NCBI GenBank assembly: GCA_001486445.1 | Contig: LN908986.1 | Coordinates: 46,182-110,181 of the forward strand | Length of the DNA stretch: 64,000 bases | Origin: Hugonella massiliensis | GTDB lineage: Bacteria; Actinomycetota; Coriobacteriia; Coriobacteriales; Eggerthellaceae | Direction: 5' to 3' | Shown here: piece after piece, positions 709-60,617 of the stretch | Position numbering within the stretch: position 1 is the first letter of the stretch | Layout: each line of letters begins with the position of its first letter | Notes under the pieces: model-generated | Told to the model about the DNA's origin: nothing | Seen by the model: only the letters and a program-made list of their open reading frames with translations | Databases searched by the model: none | Made by a program: the position numbers and the translations under genes

Positions 709-1072
709 GCTCAACCCGCAAGCTTCTTGCACACTCCCGCTCATCCCGCAGGGCCGGTGCAATCCCCCTGCTCATTTCGCAGGGCCGATGCGATTCCCGT
801 GCTCATCCTGCAGGGCCGGTGCGATTCCCTGCTCGTTTCGCAGGGCCGGTACACGTGGTTGAGCGCTCGGGCCCCGCATGCGGGGCCCTTTGCTCAAAAC
901 GCAGGGGGATGTCGCGCCGAACGGGCAAATCCCGCTCATCCCGCAGGGCCCTTGCACGGTTCCGCTCACAACGCAGGGCCGTGACGGGTTTCGCGTGCCT
1001 TTCCCCTGCGAAACGAGCTTTGGAAGCGCCGTTTCCCGTTCGGCGCGCAAAGGCCCTGCATGTTGTGCAGGC
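709..1072. repeat. Array of about 30-31 nt repeats (copy R1)
   Basis: Units begin with GCTCA at 709, 739, 770, 801 and 831 (spacing 30, 31, 31, 30), and diverged units begin at 892, 934 and 964. The unit consensus is GCTCATnnnGCAGGGCCGnTG followed by CnATnCCC. The whole unit is conserved, so there are no spacers as in a CRISPR. A non-repeated tail (about 985-1072) contains CGAAACGAG, TTTCCCGTTCGG and CCTGCATGTTGTGCAG. The same units and tail, more diverged, occur at 37448-37766. No protein-coding gene is supported here. The function is unknown. Confidence 0.85.
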
Positions 1073-13267: not shown

Positions 13268-13338
13268 GGCAAATAACGCACATTTCCGAACGACTGTTCT
13301 TCAATTCGGCTCATATGCTTCGAAATTGTGCGTTATTT
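13268..13338. repeat. Palindromic element D with flanking 7-bp direct repeats
   Basis: Arms AAATAACGCACATTTC (13271-13286) and GAAATTGTGCGTTATTT (13322-13338) are inverted copies with one bulged base around a 35-nt loop. CGGACGC occurs on both outer sides (13261-13267 and 13339-13345), as a target-site duplication would. The loop edge TTTCCGAACGACT is also found in element A1 at about 22776-22788. It lies between a lysR gene and an amino-acid permease promoter. Confidence 0.75.
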
Positions 13339-13527: not shown

Positions 13528-15027
13528 ATGGCAGAAGCCCTCGCCCCACAGAAAGGCCAGCTCAAGCGCATGTTTGGTATGCGCGAAGCCGTCACCATCG
13601 CCGCTGGATCGGTAATCGGCGTCGGTCTCTTCACCACCGGCTCCAACGTGGTGGGCGATCTGGGACCCTTCGTGATCTTCGCCACCCTGCTGGCGCTCGC
13701 GGTGAGCGTCTACCCCTCGCTGCTCTATGCCGAGATGGGCGCCGAGTTGCCCTACGCGGGCGGCACCTACCAGTTCGCATCGATGGGCATCGGCCGCTGG
13801 GCAGGGGTCCTCGCAGGCTGGAACTTCATCATCTCCCTCGTGTCGGTGACCGGCGGCGAGGCCCTCGCCTTCAGCTACTACTTCAAGACGATCTTTTTGG
13901 CCCTGGGCATCGACCTGCCCATCGACGACGCCGTGCTTGCCGCGCTCGTGGTGGCCGGCTTCACGATTGTCAACGTCTTCGGCGTGGGGCTTTCGGGCCG
14001 CGTGCAGAACGCGTCGATGTTCTTCTTCTGGGGCGTGGCCCTCATCTGGTTCCTCACGATGATCCCCAACGTGAGCCTGCCCACCTTCATCACCACGCCC
14101 GACTTCATTTCCCAGACCACGCCGCTGTCGTTCTTCGCGGCCATGTGCATGATCTGGTGGTGCTTCGCCGGCTTCGAATCGGCCGTGTCGATGGGCGAGG
14201 AAATCAAGTACCCCCATATCAACATCCCCCGCGCCATGTTCCTCACGCCCTTCGTCGTGTTCGCCGTGAACGCCCTGTTCCAGTGGTTCCTGGTAGGCAT
14301 CACGCCGGTCGACGCGATGGGCGCCCTCTCCGACGCCGACGCGCCCTTCGCCGAAGCCATGATCTCGGCCGGCATCATGGGCTTCCCGCTCATCCTGCTC
14401 TGCATCGGCATCGCCTTCGGCGGCGACTTCTCCACTCTCAACGCCTCGACCGCCACCACGGGCCGCTACCTCTTCGTGATGGCACGCGACGGCGCGGTGC
14501 CCAAAGTGTTCGCGAAAACGAGCAAGCGCTTCAGCACGCCCTATGTGGCCGTCCTCACGCTCGGCGCACTTTCGATCCTTCTGATTCTCACGAACTCACT
14601 CGACTACATCGCCAATCTGTCGCTGTTCGCCGACCTGTTCTACTACGTGATCGGCATCATCGCCGCGCTCTGCCTGCGCCAGCGGTTCCCGCAGATGGCA
14701 CGCGCCTACCGCGCGCCCGCCATCAAGATCGGCGCGCCGGTGAGCGCCGTGATCTACGTGCTCATGATGACCCAGCTCGAGCCCGACGCCTTCACCACGG
14801 GCATCGTGTGGTGCCTGGTCGCGCTCGTCGTGTACGCCATCTGCCGCAAGGTGTACGGAACAGGCGGGGAATTCACGCTCGACTTGGCCGCATCGGGTGC
14901 CAACGACGAACCCGATGACGAAGAGCGGGCCAAAATGGACCGCGAGTACCGCCTGTGGAAGATCGTCGTGGGCGCTGCCTGCGTCCTCGCCCCCGTGCTG
15001 TTTGCCTTCCCCTACCTGCTGGTGTAG
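13528..15027 (+). CDS. APC-superfamily amino-acid permease
   Basis: 499 residues with about 12 to 13 transmembrane helices. The unwound TM1 glycine motif AAGSVIGVGLFTTGSNVVG and the TM6 segment FAGFESAVSMGEEIK are the substrate-binding signatures of amino acid-polyamine-organocation transporters. A cytoplasmic acidic stretch (ANDEPDDEERAKMDREYRL) precedes the last helix. The closest visible type is a general amino-acid or ethanolamine-like APC carrier; the substrate cannot be fixed. The ATG follows GGAAGGACACCCC. The gene is closed by a long imperfect hairpin at 15041-15083. Confidence 0.85.
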   Translation: MAEALAPQKGQLKRMFGMREAVTIAAGSVIGVGLFTTGSNVVGDLGPFVIFATLLALAVSVYPSLLYAEMGAELPYAGGTYQFASMGIGRWAGVLAGWNFIISLVSVTGGEALAFSYYFKTIFLALGIDLPIDDAVLAALVVAGFTIVNVFGVGLSGRVQNASMFFFWGVALIWFLTMIPNVSLPTFITTPDFISQTTPLSFFAAMCMIWWCFAGFESAVSMGEEIKYPHINIPRAMFLTPFVVFAVNALFQWFLVGITPVDAMGALSDADAPFAEAMISAGIMGFPLILLCIGIAFGGDFSTLNASTATTGRYLFVMARDGAVPKVFAKTSKRFSTPYVAVLTLGALSILLILTNSLDYIANLSLFADLFYYVIGIIAALCLRQRFPQMARAYRAPAIKIGAPVSAVIYVLMMTQLEPDAFTTGIVWCLVALVVYAICRKVYGTGGEFTLDLAASGANDEPDDEERAKMDREYRLWKIVVGAACVLAPVLFAFPYLLV

Positions 15028-21069: not shown

Positions 21070-22354
21070 ATGGGACTTCTGAAAGCCGGCATAGGCGCAG
21101 CGAGCGGCGTTTTGGCCGATTCGTGCCGCGACTACTTCTACTGCACATCACTCGATGCCGACACCCTTGTTGCAAAGGGAGAAAAGCGCACGTCGGAGCG
21201 GAGTTCGAACGTGCACGGCGAGCAGAACATAATATCGGACGGATCGATTGTGGCGGTCAACGAGGGCCAGTTCATGATCATCGTCGAGCAGGGCGCGATC
21301 GTCGAGGCCTGCGGCGAGCCCGGCGAGTTCGTCTTCGATTCCTCCACCGAGCCGAGCCTTTTCTTCGGCGAGTCGGGGTCGCTGGGCGAGCGCCTGCGCC
21401 AGACCTTCGAGCGCATGGGCGCGCGATTTTCCTTCGGCGGCGACACCGGCAAGGACCAGCGGGTCTACTTCTTCAACACGAAAGAGATCGTCAACAACAA
21501 GTACGGAACGGCCTCCCCGGTACCTTTCCGCGTCGTCGACGCCAACATCGGACTCGACGTGGACATCTCGGTGCGCTGCAACGGATCCTACTCCTACCGC
21601 ATCGTCAACCCGCTGCTCTTCTACAAGAACGTGTGCGGCAACGTTGAAGAGCCCTACCGGCGCGACCAGATCGACGGGCAGCTGAAAAGCGAGCTGCTCA
21701 CCGCCTTGCAACCGGCCTTCGCCCGCATCTCGGCGATGGGCGTGCGCTACAGCGCCGTACCCGCGCACACCAAAGAGCTCGCCCAGGCGCTCAACGAAGA
21801 GCTTTCCGACACCTGGTCCGACCTGCGCGGCATCGAGGTGGCGTCGTTCGGCGTGAACTCGATCGCCGCGTCGCCCGAAGACGAGGACATGATCAAGCAG
21901 CTTCAGAAGGCGGCGGTCATGCGCGACCCCACCATGGCGGCGGCGAACTTGGCGGCGGCCCAAAGCGACGCCATGCGCGCGGCGGCAGCCAACGAGGCGG
22001 GAGCCGCCGTGGGCTTCATGGGCATGGGAATGGCAGGCGCCATGGGCGGCATGAACGGCGCCGACCTGTACGGACGCGGGAGTGCCGGAGGCGCTGCGGC
22101 GCCGCAATCCGCCTACCAGCAGGCTCCGGGCGGGGGCTTTGGCGCGGCGGCGGGCACGGCACGCGGGGGCAGGTGCCGCAGCGGGAGCCAACGGCTGGAC
22201 CTGTCCGGCATGCGGCGTGGCCAACACCGGCAAGTTCTGCTCCGAGTGCGGCGCCCCGCGCCCGGCAGCGGCGCAGGGCGCATGGCACTGTCCGGCATGC
22301 GGCGCGGCCAACACCGGCAAGTTCTGCTCCGAGTGCGGCACCCCGCGCCCGTAA
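21070..22354 (+). CDS. SPFH/virion-core-like protein with frameshifted C-terminal zinc ribbons
   Basis: The ATG at 21070 follows GAAAGGGGCC. About 365 residues read in one frame. They comprise an SPFH-like domain of the YdjI/virion core group (DSCRDYFYCTSLDADTLV, QRVYFFNTKEIVNNKYGT, YSYRIVNPLLFYKNVCGN), then an Ala/Gly/Met-rich linker. Two tandem zinc ribbons (WTCPACGVANTGKFCSECG, WHCPACGAANTGKFCSECG) are encoded only in the next frame. Skipping one G in the run GGGGG at 22165-22169 would join them and end at 22354. Without the shift the frame runs to 22572 through non-native sequence. This could be a sequence error, a recent mutation or a programmed shift. Likely role: membrane-associated chaperone or stress protein (inferred). 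Confidence 0.75.
22202..22353 (+). repeat. Tandem 87-bp zinc-ribbon coding repeat
   Basis: TGTCCGGCATGCGGCG starts at 22202 and again at 22289. About 63 bases of each copy are almost identical, giving two CPACGxANTGKFCSECGxPRP modules. This points to a recent internal duplication or conversion. Confidence 0.85.
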
Positions 22355-22574: not shown

Positions 22575-22682
22575 GACCCGGCATAAGCAGCGCACACGTC
22601 CCGACCGAGCGGAGGCAGAAAGCCCCTTCCACCGGAGACGCCCTCCACCGAATCGTCCCCCGTCACGCCCAGAGGACGAAAA

Positions 22683-22821
22683 TGGCATGCCGATCAAGTT
22701 TTCGAGAGAAATCGGCTTCGATACCTAATCGAACGTCACGTTATTGAACGAAACATCAATAGACGTTCACTAATTTTTCCGAACGACTCTGAAATGGCTC
22801 GAAAACTTGATCGGCGTGCCA
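22683..22821. repeat. Long palindromic element A1
   Basis: The left arm 22683-22706 (core GCCGATCAAGTTTTCGAG) and right arm 22798-22821 are inverted copies at 23 of 24 positions, around a 91-nt AT-rich loop. The right flank GGCGCCCGTTTCGTTTCCAG is conserved at element A2 (60071-60090), so the repeat unit extends beyond the arms. The region is gene-free. Confidence 0.85.
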
Positions 22822-22905
22822 TGGAGGCGCCCGTTTCGTTTCCAGGCGCGCAAAGGGGGCGTACAGCCGCAGCGGAAAGCAGGGGGGTGTGGAAAGAAAC
22901 GGCGA

Positions 22906-23006: not shown

Positions 23007-23121
23007 AGGCCCGGGGCAAGGCGCGCACGAGGGAAAGCGAGCGCTCGGAGCGCGCAACAGCCCCAACGGGCAGTGGGCGGGCACGGTCACCGCAGCGACG
23101 GGCACGCAGGGAGCCAAGAAA

Positions 23122-23271
23122 TGACGTAAATGTCTCTAATTCGCGAGGCCAAAGGTCATGATCGTCAGGATAGTGAACGGATTGTTGAATATCACCCGTC
23201 AATGAAGCTCCCAAACGCAGGAACGAGCATCACCCGCGCTTGAAATCCGCGAATGAGCGATATTTACGTCA
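23122..23271. repeat. Long palindromic element B1
   Basis: Left arm 23122-23145 (TGACGTAAATGTCTCTAATT plus CGCG) and right arm 23248-23271 match in inverted orientation at 20 of 24 positions around a 102-nt loop. Outer flanks GCCAAGAAA and AAAACTCCCCTTC recur at element B2 as GCCGAGAAA and AAAATCCCCTTC. Confidence 0.85.
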
Positions 23272-23419
23272 AAACTCCCCTTCTGGCGTGCAAATGAGAC
23301 CAAAAGCACGCGGGCGGGCGGGCCGGCGCCCCGCCCCGGCGTGAGGATTTCCTCTGCCCGTAATGGGAAAGCTTCTCAGGTGGGTGTAGCATGAACCCCA
23401 AGAGAAGAAAGAGGCTCCC

Positions 23420-37427: not shown

Positions 37428-37447
37428 CCGCCCCCAGCACGCGCAGT

Positions 37448-37766
37448 GCTCATTTCCAATGCGCCGTTCGTTTTGCACAGCTCTTGCGCGCGGAGTGCTC
37501 ATTTCGCTCGACCGTTGCTACTTTACGCTCATCCTGCAGGCTTGTTGCAAGGGATTTCGAGATCGACCCCCGTATTCGGGGTTCTCTGCACATTTTGCAG
37601 GGAAATGTCACGTCAAACGGGAATATCCTGCTCATCTTGCACGGTCGTTGCACGATTCTGCTCAACATGCACAGCCGTGGCAGATTTCGCCTGCTATAAC
37701 CCTGCAAAACGAGTTTCCAGGTGCCTCTTTCCCGTTCGGCCTGCAACACCCCTGCATTCTGTGCAG
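37448..37766. repeat. Array of about 30 nt repeats (copy R2)
   Basis: A diverged copy of the array at 709-1072. Units start with GCTCAT at 37448, 37498, 37528 and 37630 and GCTCAAC at 37660; neighbouring units are 30 nt apart (37498/37528 and 37630/37660). Between units the order of landmarks is as in R1: CCCGTATTCGGGG (R1: CCCGCATGCGGGG), TTTTGCAGGGAAATGTC (R1: AACGCAGGGGGATGTC), GTCAAACGGGAAT (R1: GCCGAACGGGCAAAT), then the tail CGAGTTTCCAG, TTTCCCGTTCGG and CCTGCATTCTGTGCAG. R2 is less GC-rich than R1. No gene is supported. Confidence 0.85.
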
Positions 37767-46020: not shown

Positions 46021-46219
46021 CACATTAGGGAAGTTGTCTATAGTCGTTTTCCCCTGATGAAGGCATGCGGAGCCATTTGCCGGGCGAACGGAGGCGTTGT
46101 CGCCCGCGCCGAACGAGTCAGAGAGATGTGGTCCCTCCGACTCATCGCCCTTCGGCTATTTCGTAAGGATGCGTCCCGCATCGCCGCCGACCGCGCTGAA
46201 AGCGTGTATCCTTAAGCCA

Positions 46220-46318
46220 TACGCGCTGTGACTGACGGTTCATGTGGGTCACCACAGGGGAGCAGCGCGCCCAATCCGCCGACCGTCTGGGCAAGCCGCG
46301 CACACCAGAGGGGGCTTG
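46220..46318 (+). ncRNA. ZTP (pfl) riboswitch upstream of purine genes
   Basis: All parts of the pfl motif are visible. P1 pairs CGCGCT (46222-46227) with AGCGCG (46264-46269). The conserved GTGACTGACGG holds one pseudoknot strand, GACGG (46234-46238). A hairpin TGTGG-GTCA-CCACA precedes the invariant GGGGAGC (46257-46263). The 3' part CCGACCGTCTGGGCA supplies CCGTC (46283-46287) for the pseudoknot and CTGGGCA for ligand binding. The next segment can form CAAGCC/GGCTTG (46292-46318), a possible expression platform. ZTP/AICAR signals low 10-formyl-tetrahydrofolate, which fits the AICAR-using enzyme encoded downstream. The leader also has a hairpin at 46115-46143. Confidence 0.92.
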
Positions 46319-48390: not shown

Positions 48391-49239
48391 ATGACCCGTA
48401 CCGCTCGCTCGCGCAAGCACAAAGGATTCGATCTGGAAAAGCGCCTGGCCGCCGCCGCTACCGCCGTGGAACGCGACCCCGCCCGCTGGCGAGGGCGCTG
48501 GCATACCTGGCACGCTGCCGAAACGACCGCCGGCGCCCGCCCCTGGCGCCGGGTCGTCGTCGATTTAGGCTGCGGAAAAGGCGCAGCGACCGTGGCCCTT
48601 GCCGCCGCGTACCCCGACACCTTGTTCGTGGGCATCGACGCCGAACCGGTGTGCACCCTGCAGTCTGCCGAGAAAGCGGTGGCCGCTCACCTGTCCAACG
48701 CCGTCTTCCCCCTCTGCGCGGACCCGCAGCTGCCCGACCTGTTCGCCCCCGGGGAAATCGATCGGCTCGCGATGAACTTCCCCACCCCGCATCCCAAGAA
48801 GAAGCACGCGCCCCTGCGCTTGACCCACGTCGATCGGCTGATCGCCTATCGGCCTCTGCTCGCACCGGGCGCCGTGCTCGCTCTGAAGACCGATAGCGAC
48901 CCCTTCCTGCAGTTCAGCTTGGAAGAACTCGCACTCGCCCGCTACCGCGTCGTGCAGACCGCGCGCGACTGGCGTGCCGCCCACCCCGACGAGCCGGCGA
49001 CCGAATACGAAGAAAAGCTGGTGGCCAAGGGCGCGCCCGTGCTCGGCCTTCTAGCCCTGCCCACCACCGAGCCCGCACCGCACCCCGAGGACATCGTGCA
49101 GACAGCCCACCTGAGCCTCTACGACTACCTGCCCGCCAACCTCGACGAGCTCGCTTACGTGGCCCACGGGATGGAGGGCGCCGTGGAGAACATGCGCAAC
49201 CACGCCCGTCACCTGGCCGAGAAGCGTACCCGCGCCTAG
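48391..49239 (+). CDS. trmB: TrmB-family tRNA (guanine46-N7)-methyltransferase
   Basis: 282 residues. The SAM-binding motif VVVDLGCGKGAATVALAAAY, FVGIDAEPVCTLQSAEKAV, and the TrmB segments LAMNFPTPHPKKKHAPLRLT and LALKTDSDPFLQFSLEEL are present. It adds m7G at position 46 of tRNA. It is longer than the usual 210-240 residues, with extra N-terminal (about 45) and C-terminal sequence, and the canonical NFxDPWPKxRHxKRR is altered (NFPTPHPKKKHAPLR). Function is therefore likely but substrate not certain. The ATG at 48391 follows GAAGGGATTGCGC. Confidence 0.8.
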   Translation: MTRTARSRKHKGFDLEKRLAAAATAVERDPARWRGRWHTWHAAETTAGARPWRRVVVDLGCGKGAATVALAAAYPDTLFVGIDAEPVCTLQSAEKAVAAHLSNAVFPLCADPQLPDLFAPGEIDRLAMNFPTPHPKKKHAPLRLTHVDRLIAYRPLLAPGAVLALKTDSDPFLQFSLEELALARYRVVQTARDWRAAHPDEPATEYEEKLVAKGAPVLGLLALPTTEPAPHPEDIVQTAHLSLYDYLPANLDELAYVAHGMEGAVENMRNHARHLAEKRTRA

Positions 49240-49280
49240 CGGGGGCGCAACCGTCGCGCCCCCGCGCGCCCCGCATGAAA

Positions 49281-59600: not shown

Positions 59601-59622
59601 AGACACGACAGAGGCCGAGAAA

Positions 59623-59761
59623 TGACGTAAATATCTCTATTTCGCGAACGGTAGCTCAGTTATTGGACACTATCAGTTTTTTTGTTTAGAAACAGTCTTC
59701 TGCAGAAGGCCAACGGCCCGTTTTCTCCAAGGGAACACGCGAAATAGAGGTTTTTACGTCA
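59623..59761. repeat. Long palindromic element B2
   Basis: Left arm 59623-59646 (TGACGTAAATATCTCTATTT plus CGCG) and right arm 59738-59761 are inverted copies at 22 of 24 positions around a 91-nt AT-rich loop. The outer flanks match those of B1. The loop contains TTGGACACTATCAGTTTTTT, similar to loops of A2 and C. Confidence 0.87.
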
Positions 59762-59927
59762 AAATCCCCTTCCGCTCATGAAAGGGAGGGCAGCGGCGTA
59801 TGAAGAACGCCCACTACACCGGGGCGCAGTCGCGGCGTGCGGCATGGACAACAAACCCTCGCAAGAGAGAACGAGCGTCAAACCAAGCGAGGCGCAGCCC
59901 TCGACACGCACGCCCGAAAACCCTTGA

Positions 59928-60066
59928 TGGTCTGCCAATCAAGTTTTCGATGCAATTCGGTCTCTGAACCGTGGAAGAGTGCTTCGTACCTGGACATATA
60001 TTGCAATGTTGTTCATTGTTAATGACCTGAGGAGCGCGAGGGCTCGAAAACTTGGCGGGAAAGCCA
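59928..60066. repeat. Long palindromic element A2
   Basis: Left arm 59928-59950 and right arm 60043-60066 share CCAAGTTTTCGA-type cores in inverted orientation, with the rest of the stem partly mismatched. The 92-nt loop contains CTGGACATATATTGCAATGT then TGTTCATTG. The right flank GCGCCGCCGATTTCGTTTCG resembles that of A1. Confidence 0.8.
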
Positions 60067-60187
60067 TAGCGCCGCCGATTTCGTTTCGAGCAGAGGACAA
60101 AGCGCACCGCACGGATGAACCACACCAGCGTTCGAAGGCGGCGACACAGCATCCGCCCCGCCTTGCGAACAGATCGCAACCGGGACC

Positions 60188-60232
60188 GGGGGCGCGAGCG
60201 AATATCACGCGCCCCGTCCCGCGGGTCGAGCC
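60188..60232. repeat. GC-rich repeat segment, copy 2
   Basis: GGGGGCGCGAGCGAATATCA then CGCGCCCCGTCCCGCGGGTC. It aligns with 60573-60617 and, more weakly, with 22541-22574 and 59818-59840. It lies between palindromes A2 and C. Confidence 0.6.
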
Positions 60233-60380
60233 AGCCGGTAGCAGGGAGCGCACGCACCCCGTCGCATGGGCGAAAGGTCATCGAGATGCAGACCGCAAGC
60301 GACCGCTATTCCGCTTAAGCCCACACGGAAACGAGGCGCGATGATCCGCTTCACGACACTCGGGATACGCCATCGGTTTC

Positions 60381-60524
60381 TCAGACGAGTTTTTCCCAAG
60401 AAGCCCCGACACCGGTTCTCGCATTGTATTGTTGGACATGATTTTCAGTATTGTTCGTTACGACGATTACGGTAAGGCACGATGTGCCGTACCGATTCTC
60501 ACCAGCAGGGAAAAACTCGTCTGA
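60381..60524. repeat. Long palindromic element C
   Basis: TCAGACGAGTTTTTCCC (60381-60397) and GGGAAAAACTCGTCTGA (60508-60524) are a perfect 17-bp inverted repeat around a 110-nt loop. The loop contains TTGGACATGATTTTCAGTAT then TGTTCGTTACG and an internal hairpin GGTAAGGCAC-GAT-GTGCCGTACC. Confidence 0.88.
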
Positions 60525-60572
60525 AAGACCAAAATGACGATCATTTCATGATGTAAAGGTACAGCCAAACAC

Positions 60573-60617
60573 CGGGGCGCAAGCGAAGCGCACGCGCCCC
60601 GTCCCGCAGGTTGAACC
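60573..60617. repeat. GC-rich repeat segment, copy 3
   Basis: CGGGGCGCAAGCGAAGCGCA then CGCGCCCCGTCCCGCAGGTT. It follows palindrome C by about 50 bases and ends 47 bases before the response-regulator stop. Confidence 0.6.

Follow-up and report, generated by a model that had tools for sequence, protein, structure and literature searches.

Positions 60381-60524 of the window (the whole stretch of 64,000 nucleotides analysed, C9:46182-110181 of the genome of Hugonella massiliensis, here G000, a 2.09-Mb draft in 9 contigs; window GC content 65%) form the inner part, a perfect 17-bp inverted repeat, of a long palindrome named C. Two other palindromes, A2 and B2, lie beside it, and the locus raises the question of why palindromes with different arms should have a motif of their loops in common. 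A sequence-only reading had proposed that the three loops align while the arms are unrelated, and that the palindromes belong to one superfamily with a conserved core, whose arms differ and yet remain self-complementary, which was taken to imply either selection on the fold or a mechanism of gene conversion. The features discussed below are listed in the table.

Palindromes of the window, with their cores, outer triplets and common sequence
Feature	Position	Strand	Description
Element C	60373..60532	+	diverged A-type palindrome; arms 60375-60397 and 60508-60530; loop 110 nt
Core dyad of C	60433..60457	.	TGGACA-N13-TGTTCG; TGGACATGATTTTCAGTATTGTTCG; half-spacers left 35 (off phase), right 50
Element A2	59927..60067	+	arms 59927-59951 and 60043-60067; loop 91
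Core dyad of A2	59991..60015	.	TGGACATATATTGCAATGTTGTTCA; half-spacers 39/27
Outer ACG of A2	59910..59912	.	14 nt beyond the left arm; CGT at 60082-60084 as mirror
Element B2	59621..59763	+	arms 59621-59646 and 59738-59763; loop 91
Core dyad of B2	59664..59688	.	TGGACACTATCAGTTTTTTTGTTTA; half-spacers 17/49
Outer ACG of B2	59605-59607		left; right one not kept
Element A1	22682..22822	+	arms 22682-22706 and 22798-22822; loop 91
Core dyad of A1	22745..22769	.	TGAACG-N13-CGTTCA; half-spacers 38/28
Outer triplets of A1	22665-22667, 22837-22839		ACG and CGT
Element B1	23120..23273	+	arms 23120-23145 and 23248-23273; loop 102
Degenerate core of B1	23174..23198	.	no recognisable half-site on the right; score 4.1; half-spacers 28/49
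Outer triplets of B1	23104-23106, 23287-23289		ACG and CGT
Palindrome D	13271-13338		inverted repeat AAATAACGCACATTTCCGAA; span 68 nt, loop 28 nt; before gene called at 13528
13-mer TTTCCGAACGACT	13283-13295, 22776-22788		exact in D and in A1

The shared core and the family defined by it

As proposed, C, A2 and B2 have loops that align, around a 25-bp dyad, TGNACR-N13-YGTNCA, which is also present in A1. An 18-base version of the motif as first read, searched with up to 2 mismatches, was at chance level in the window (4 matches, 4.7 expected). The form TGRACR-N13-YGTTYA occurred at 9 places genome-wide, in 9 forward and 4 reverse rows against 1 and 2 for the reversed control, and 8 of the 9 places fell inside palindromes of the A or B kind: A1, A2, B2, three new ones of A type (L002, L013 and L015, spanning 141 bp as do A1 and A2) and two of B type (L012 and L014). 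At the ninth place, L010, no inverted repeat was seen. A search with the dyad alone thus recovered palindromes of both arm types, in agreement with a single superfamily. The right half of the core of C is slightly deviant; C was matched by a second pattern, which gave four loose-spacing matches besides.

Models built from 13 A-type and 5 B-type elements were run over G000 and one other genome of the genus, the Eggerthellaceae MAG JALCHN01 (G001, about 95% complete), which holds the best match of the response-regulator gene beside C (92% identity, residues 104-338); both genomes are drafts. After merging of strands and overlaps 44 places remained, and a weak match at C8:174270 (model R1, E 0.03) was dropped from all counts. 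The resulting family of 43 elements comprises 25 in G000 (14 A-like, C included, and 11 B) and 18 in G001 (12 A-like and 6 B). Among 119 family genomes searched with the A and B models only these two were positive, the other 117 giving no match under filters strict enough to lose weak ones; when 41 genomes, other families of the order among them, were searched at the DNA level with a single A element, matches again came from G000 and G001 only. The non-redundant set used below leaves out five near-duplicates or orthologues and still contains other orthologous pairs.

The motif persisted as more copies were aligned. Leave-one-out core scores exceeded 8 in 39 of the 43 elements, a presence that was partly selected for, since 8 of the 43 were found only through the core pattern and loop positions are part of the models; shuffled loops scored far lower (mean -1.2, 95th percentile 5.7, 99th percentile 9.3). 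The four elements at or below 8 were B1 and three long A-like ones. In its longer form the core measures about 33 bp, TTnnTGNACR-N13-YGTNCAnnAA, and a core model built without the two degenerate cores (B1 and C6:29417) matched 40 rows (30 places), all inside elements. Chance or AT composition as the source of the motif was rejected on the shuffled-loop scores together with the coherence of core position. Over 99 family genomes the core pattern showed no general excess. High counts were noted in G012, G045 and G100 (13/12, 10/12 and 8/8, with controls of 3/1, 0/1 and 3/2), which may represent another palindromic repeat.

Arms and outer flanks

Read from the outside inwards, each element consists of a triplet ACG, a 14-bp gap, an arm, a spacer and the core, followed by a spacer and the mirror image. 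The A arm is 25 bp long (ATGGCNTGCCRATCRAGTTTTCGAG) and the B arm 26 bp (WWTGACGTAAATATCTCTAWTTCGCG). The gap ends at the TG-like start of the arm. In A-type elements the outer triplet stands in the context GAAACG. With C not counted, one exact offset accounted for the outer ACG in 45 of the 50 A flanks and in 26 of the 34 B flanks; no other offset from 5 to 39 gave more than 6. The GC content is 43% in the arms, 49% in the spacers, 31% in the core and 68% in the outer flanks.

The arms are not all unrelated as had been proposed. An A-type model (R1) from which C had been left out matched C, whose own arms are 91% complementary, at E 3.1e-6, and the A and B half-sites have the outer ACG in common in the same register. 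Compared by their arms alone, A and B were not significantly related (737 of 5000 column shuffles were as good); with the outer flanks included, 19 of 5000 shuffles were as good, which is suggestive of a sequence relationship between the half-sites. The sequence reported as common to D and A1 is indeed an exact 13-mer, but D, with a 68-nt span and a 28-nt loop, is too short for the phased layout and was left out of the family.

Terminal inverted repeats such as these are a mark of miniature non-autonomous transposons (MITEs), and the elements are moreover repeated, intergenic, limited to one genus and set as AT-rich islands. On that account the arms with the outer ACG would be bipartite terminal repeats, the core would bind an accessory bending protein, and the phase described below would allow a transposase to synapse ends about 140-200 bp apart. 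Several observations oppose it: in the pooled flanks no position beyond the outer ACG passed the conservation threshold, so that nothing marks an end; for target-site duplication the best similarity observed stayed close to a mismatched control at every length tried; and exact A-arm matches, 39 over both draft genomes, lay without exception inside elements, none being solitary or flanking a gene. Eleven matches with one mismatch lay outside elements, of which three were inspected.

Helical phasing of the half-spacers

The best position of the core in each loop was found with a leave-one-out matrix and without constraint on place. Of the 34 non-redundant elements whose core is clear, 33 have arm-to-core distances of 17, 27-28, 38-39 or 48-50; the exception is C, which is off by about 3. 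The left half-spacers measured 17 (one element), 27-28 (seven), 35 (C), 38-39 (17) and 48-49 (eight), and the right ones 27-28 (13), 38-39 (11) and 48-50 (10); left and right are interchangeable for some elements, minus-strand ones being partly read in contig orientation, and the two sets of values are nearly alike. The pooled mean resultant length for these 34 elements was 0.94 at 10.5-10.75 bp, and in 300 sets of shuffled loops it never exceeded 0.46 (left side). At 10.67 bp the phase, calculated separately, was 6.61 for A (n=21) and 6.46 for B (n=14). When lengths were reduced to distinct classes (7 A and 6 B, merged by us within 1 nt against the effect of shared descent), the best period within 5-20 bp was 10.65 bp and none of 20,000 random sets was as coherent, with some non-independence of the copies remaining even after this reduction. 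The period is close to the helical repeat of DNA.

The half-spacers combine as 38/28, 28/39, 39/39, 49/28, 49/39, 17/49 and others. The two halves step separately, and therefore the core must be in phase with each arm, rather than the arms with one another alone. Whole-turn spacing, as for two sites on one face of the helix, was found throughout, C excepted. Loop lengths of 124, 135 and 145, in three A-like elements where no core could be recognised, continue the series 91/102/113. Since C is off phase and also lacks the standard outer ACG, it may be decaying.

Genomic context and pairing of the arms

Context was examined for 37 of the 43 elements, with genes called by our own codon-score caller instead of a standard one. 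None of the 37 overlapped a called gene, and the host intergenic regions, of 413-1876 bp, were convergent for 13 elements, divergent for 8 and tandem for 16. Convergent pairs are over-represented (13/37 elements against 28/196 neighbouring pairs in the same loci, elements sharing one region being counted singly), and because of this the placement is not fully orientation-neutral. The cluster B2-A2-C lies between convergent genes for a deoxycytidylate deaminase and a LuxR-type response regulator, and the counterpart of this region in G001 contains a B and an A-like element in a different order. A regulon was considered and rejected, the 30 flanking proteins of 15 G000 loci being unrelated in function; none of the 30 matched a transposase or recombinase family, and two had no Pfam match.

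The excess of convergent pairs would be compatible with an RNA hairpin selected for folding (a regulatory or stability element, terminator or small RNA), as would the strong pairing of the folded arms. The proposal that arms change yet stay self-complementary held for C and for one G001 element (C13:36311), in both of which the two arms are altered together, and failed generally; selection on the fold is accordingly not supported. Among 14 non-redundant B elements 287 of 364 arm positions were Watson-Crick pairs, the mean being 286.7 when right arms were shuffled among elements. For 24 non-redundant A elements 497 of 600 positions paired, against 474 after shuffling, an excess reached in 12 and 20 of 2000 shuffles (two runs); when C and C13:36311 were omitted the figures became 454 of 550 and 456, and the excess was gone. 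G-T mismatches showed no excess over shuffles, and a covarying stem was not found in the B arms, which are independent, nor in the A arms beyond these two elements. Because left and right arms otherwise vary independently, pairing is not the general constraint, and an RNA or cruciform fold is not supported as such. Elements also occur in divergent and tandem regions, and Rfam at the gathering threshold gave none at the elements of the window, its sole match there being a ZMP/ZTP riboswitch at 46218-46299 (61.8 bits). Finally, loops lengthen in steps of about 10.7 nt, one turn of the duplex, and half-loops likewise by duplex turns; folding of a strand offers no account of this. We regard the hairpin reading as very improbable. 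The arms look instead like two inverted copies of a recognition site, and the joint alterations in C and C13:36311 could be a change of dialect or the correction of one arm by the other.

Orthologous loci and duplicated copies

Loci with an element in both species were identified by alignment of the flanks. Over six pairs, 254 of 306 arm positions (83%) and 48 of 60 key bases of the core (80%) were identical, against 256 of 485 spacer positions (53%; 226 of 485, 47%, after shuffling), a contrast between arm and spacer that is biased, the elements having been found through their arms. The ACG triplet was kept in 19 of 24 cases, and the 6-nt outer windows (44/72, 61%) were about as conserved as the 14-nt gaps (97/168, 58%). 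Spacer homology was clear in three pairs (z 4.7, 4.9 and 8.0) and not in the other three (z 0.9, 1.7 and 2.5), and for this reason some pairs may be independent acquisitions. Two further pairs (C9:412082/C36 and B1/C29) had no spacer homology and were dropped from the comparison. A near-identical pair was also left out, as it lies in a 3.9-kb segment (G000 C9:114003-117884, L094; L042 1-3886) that is 97% identical between the two species, the other matched stretches having 78-93%; the segment is possibly a recent transfer.

One clear pair was G000 C6:29417 and G001 C13:14824, in which the spacers are homologous (z 8.0 with the core removed) and one half-spacer measures 49 in one copy and 39 in the other, a 10-nt indel equivalent to one turn. 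Such maintenance of phase after speciation in a clear orthologous pair speaks against miniature transposons. The copies themselves provide evidence on both sides. Five A copies of G000 have the spacer start GAATAWCGGC in common, a 527-bp block carrying a B and an A element occurs in two intergenic regions of G000 (C9:309087-309611 and C6:69555-70073), the copies being 90% identical, and a G001 element has no counterpart at window 49225-49273, the one presence/absence locus, with borders that are not resolvable; all three would suit mobility. Against it, the recent duplicates include flanking repeats copied along with the elements, and no unit is delimited. Helical quantisation driven by synapsis has a precedent in the internal eliminated sequences (IESs) of Paramecium (PMC3464196). 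The main rival to a loop acting in place is thus a miniature mobile element whose ends are synapsed, and we consider it a possible, though somewhat doubtful, origin of the family.

Phage att sites have a dyad with a variable middle, inverted accessory arms and helical phasing. By this resemblance the elements might be site-specific recombination sites (attP-like or inverton), with a recombinase on the core, a 13-7-13-like dyad, and the arms as accessory sites. In four orthologous pairs with homologous spacers, however, the loops lie the same way round, and the only PF00589 proteins of G001 (about 95% complete) are two Xer-like ones, no dedicated tyrosine recombinase common to both genomes having been found; because only these two were found in G001, such an enzyme is unlikely. 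Recombination sites therefore appear improbable.

A proposed looped recognition element

We think it rather probable that the palindromes act as duplex DNA, each offering three recognition sites and being looped by a putative bridging protein. The layout was likened to a protein-bridged loop because two inverted asymmetric half-sites and a dyad lie on one helix face. The parts of this reading that were observed are the three conserved parts, the outer ACG at its exact offset, the quantisation at about 10.65 bp and the phase common to A and B, with neither a solitary exact A arm nor a core-model match outside the elements; from them we infer protein binding, DNA looping and action in place at intergenic sites. 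The bridging protein would bind two inverted half-sites of about 45 bp each (outer ACG, fixed gap and 25-bp arm), and a second dimer or bending factor would bind the extended core dyad between them. The intervening DNA would be looped with arms and core on one helix face, a need under which spacers would drift in sequence and change their length by whole turns. The loop may act in place, in an architectural or insulating role, and not only during transposition; this is favoured because phase and parts are kept in clear orthologous copies, mainly three pairs, while the spacers drift.

Some facts do not fit the loop reading well. The family is limited to one genus (2 genomes), which would be unexpected if it served a basic function of the chromosome. 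On one side (35) C is off phase, and it lacks the standard outer ACG; B1 has lost half of its core, and three elements have none. Element counts per locus differ between the two species. The excess in convergent gene pairs, the one-mismatch arm matches outside elements, and the partial spacer homology and biased arm conservation of the orthologous pairs also count against it. A wider picture can be offered tentatively, as one that may well prove wrong: a genus-specific, genome-wide set of some 18-25 miniature DNA loops per genome, in which a dedicated protein bridges half-sites of two dialects (A and B) and one apex protein is common to both, the phase being under selection at each locus and the sites serving architecture or insulation. 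We know of no bacterial counterpart of such a genome-wide system.

Relation to known systems

Helical phasing has usually been demonstrated by engineering, one promoter each time. In this genus evolution has seemingly carried out the helical-twist experiment dozens of times over, with two half-spacers per element. If the loop reading is true, these bacterial elements are natural miniature DNA loops open to direct testing, and the DNA alone predicts a protein that forms them, the two dialects of its sites and a partner at the apex; repeat palindromes taken for hairpins can be duplex DNA sites. In the open-licence literature on intergenic repeats of Eggerthella or Coriobacteriia and on helically spaced bacterial repeats, nothing alike was found among the matches listed.

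The nearest worked example is the gal repressosome, the GalR-HU loop of E. coli, whose operators lie 113 bp apart on one helix face with HU at the apex, and which represses best at 103/113/123/133 bp (PMC4693257). Two sites on one helix face and an apex site are alike in both. The gal system, as its source describes it, is a single regulatory locus with promoters inside the loop, whereas the elements occur in tens of intergenic copies, have asymmetric half-sites of about 45 bp and show no sign of a regulon. The nearest natural length spectrum is that of the Paramecium IESs. In this natural family, lengths under 150 bp recur with a period of about 10.2 bp, which has been interpreted as looping of the DNA between its ends (PMC3464196); the IESs are eukaryotic, excised and bounded by weak Tc1/mariner-like ends, in contrast to the bacterial elements with their long arms and phased central dyad.

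Among bacterial repeats, the Correia repeat enclosed elements (CREE) of Neisseria, which are MITEs, are mostly 104-108 or 153-157 bp long with 26-bp inverted ends, some having an internal IHF site; their target is duplicated, their core sequence is in common and their length variants differ by 5, 9, 11 and 64 bp (PMC2649163). The present elements differ from what is described there in having no target duplication, diverged spacers and helically quantised lengths. With REP/BIME palindromes they have in common that they are intergenic repeated palindromes, but REPs measure 20-40 bp (PMC3733652), while the elements measure 139-195 bp and have a central dyad and phasing.

Other repeats of the window

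Arrays of a GCTCATNNTGCAGGG-type intergenic repeat, a family separate from the palindromes, were noted at window positions 739-1070 and 37440-37760 and also in L131, L132 and L134, the units being spaced 31 bp apart in the first array and some arrays having TGCAAAACGAGTTTTCGAA. A GC-rich intergenic repeat around GCCCCGTCCCGCAGGTTGA occurs near elements, at window positions 60200-60240 and 60575-60610, in L037 and in the tail of L105. Within a Band_7/SPFH gene, at window positions 22196-22351, there are two copies of a 69-bp stretch, 87 bp apart and 94% identical, which by our own reading are two zinc-ribbon-like units.
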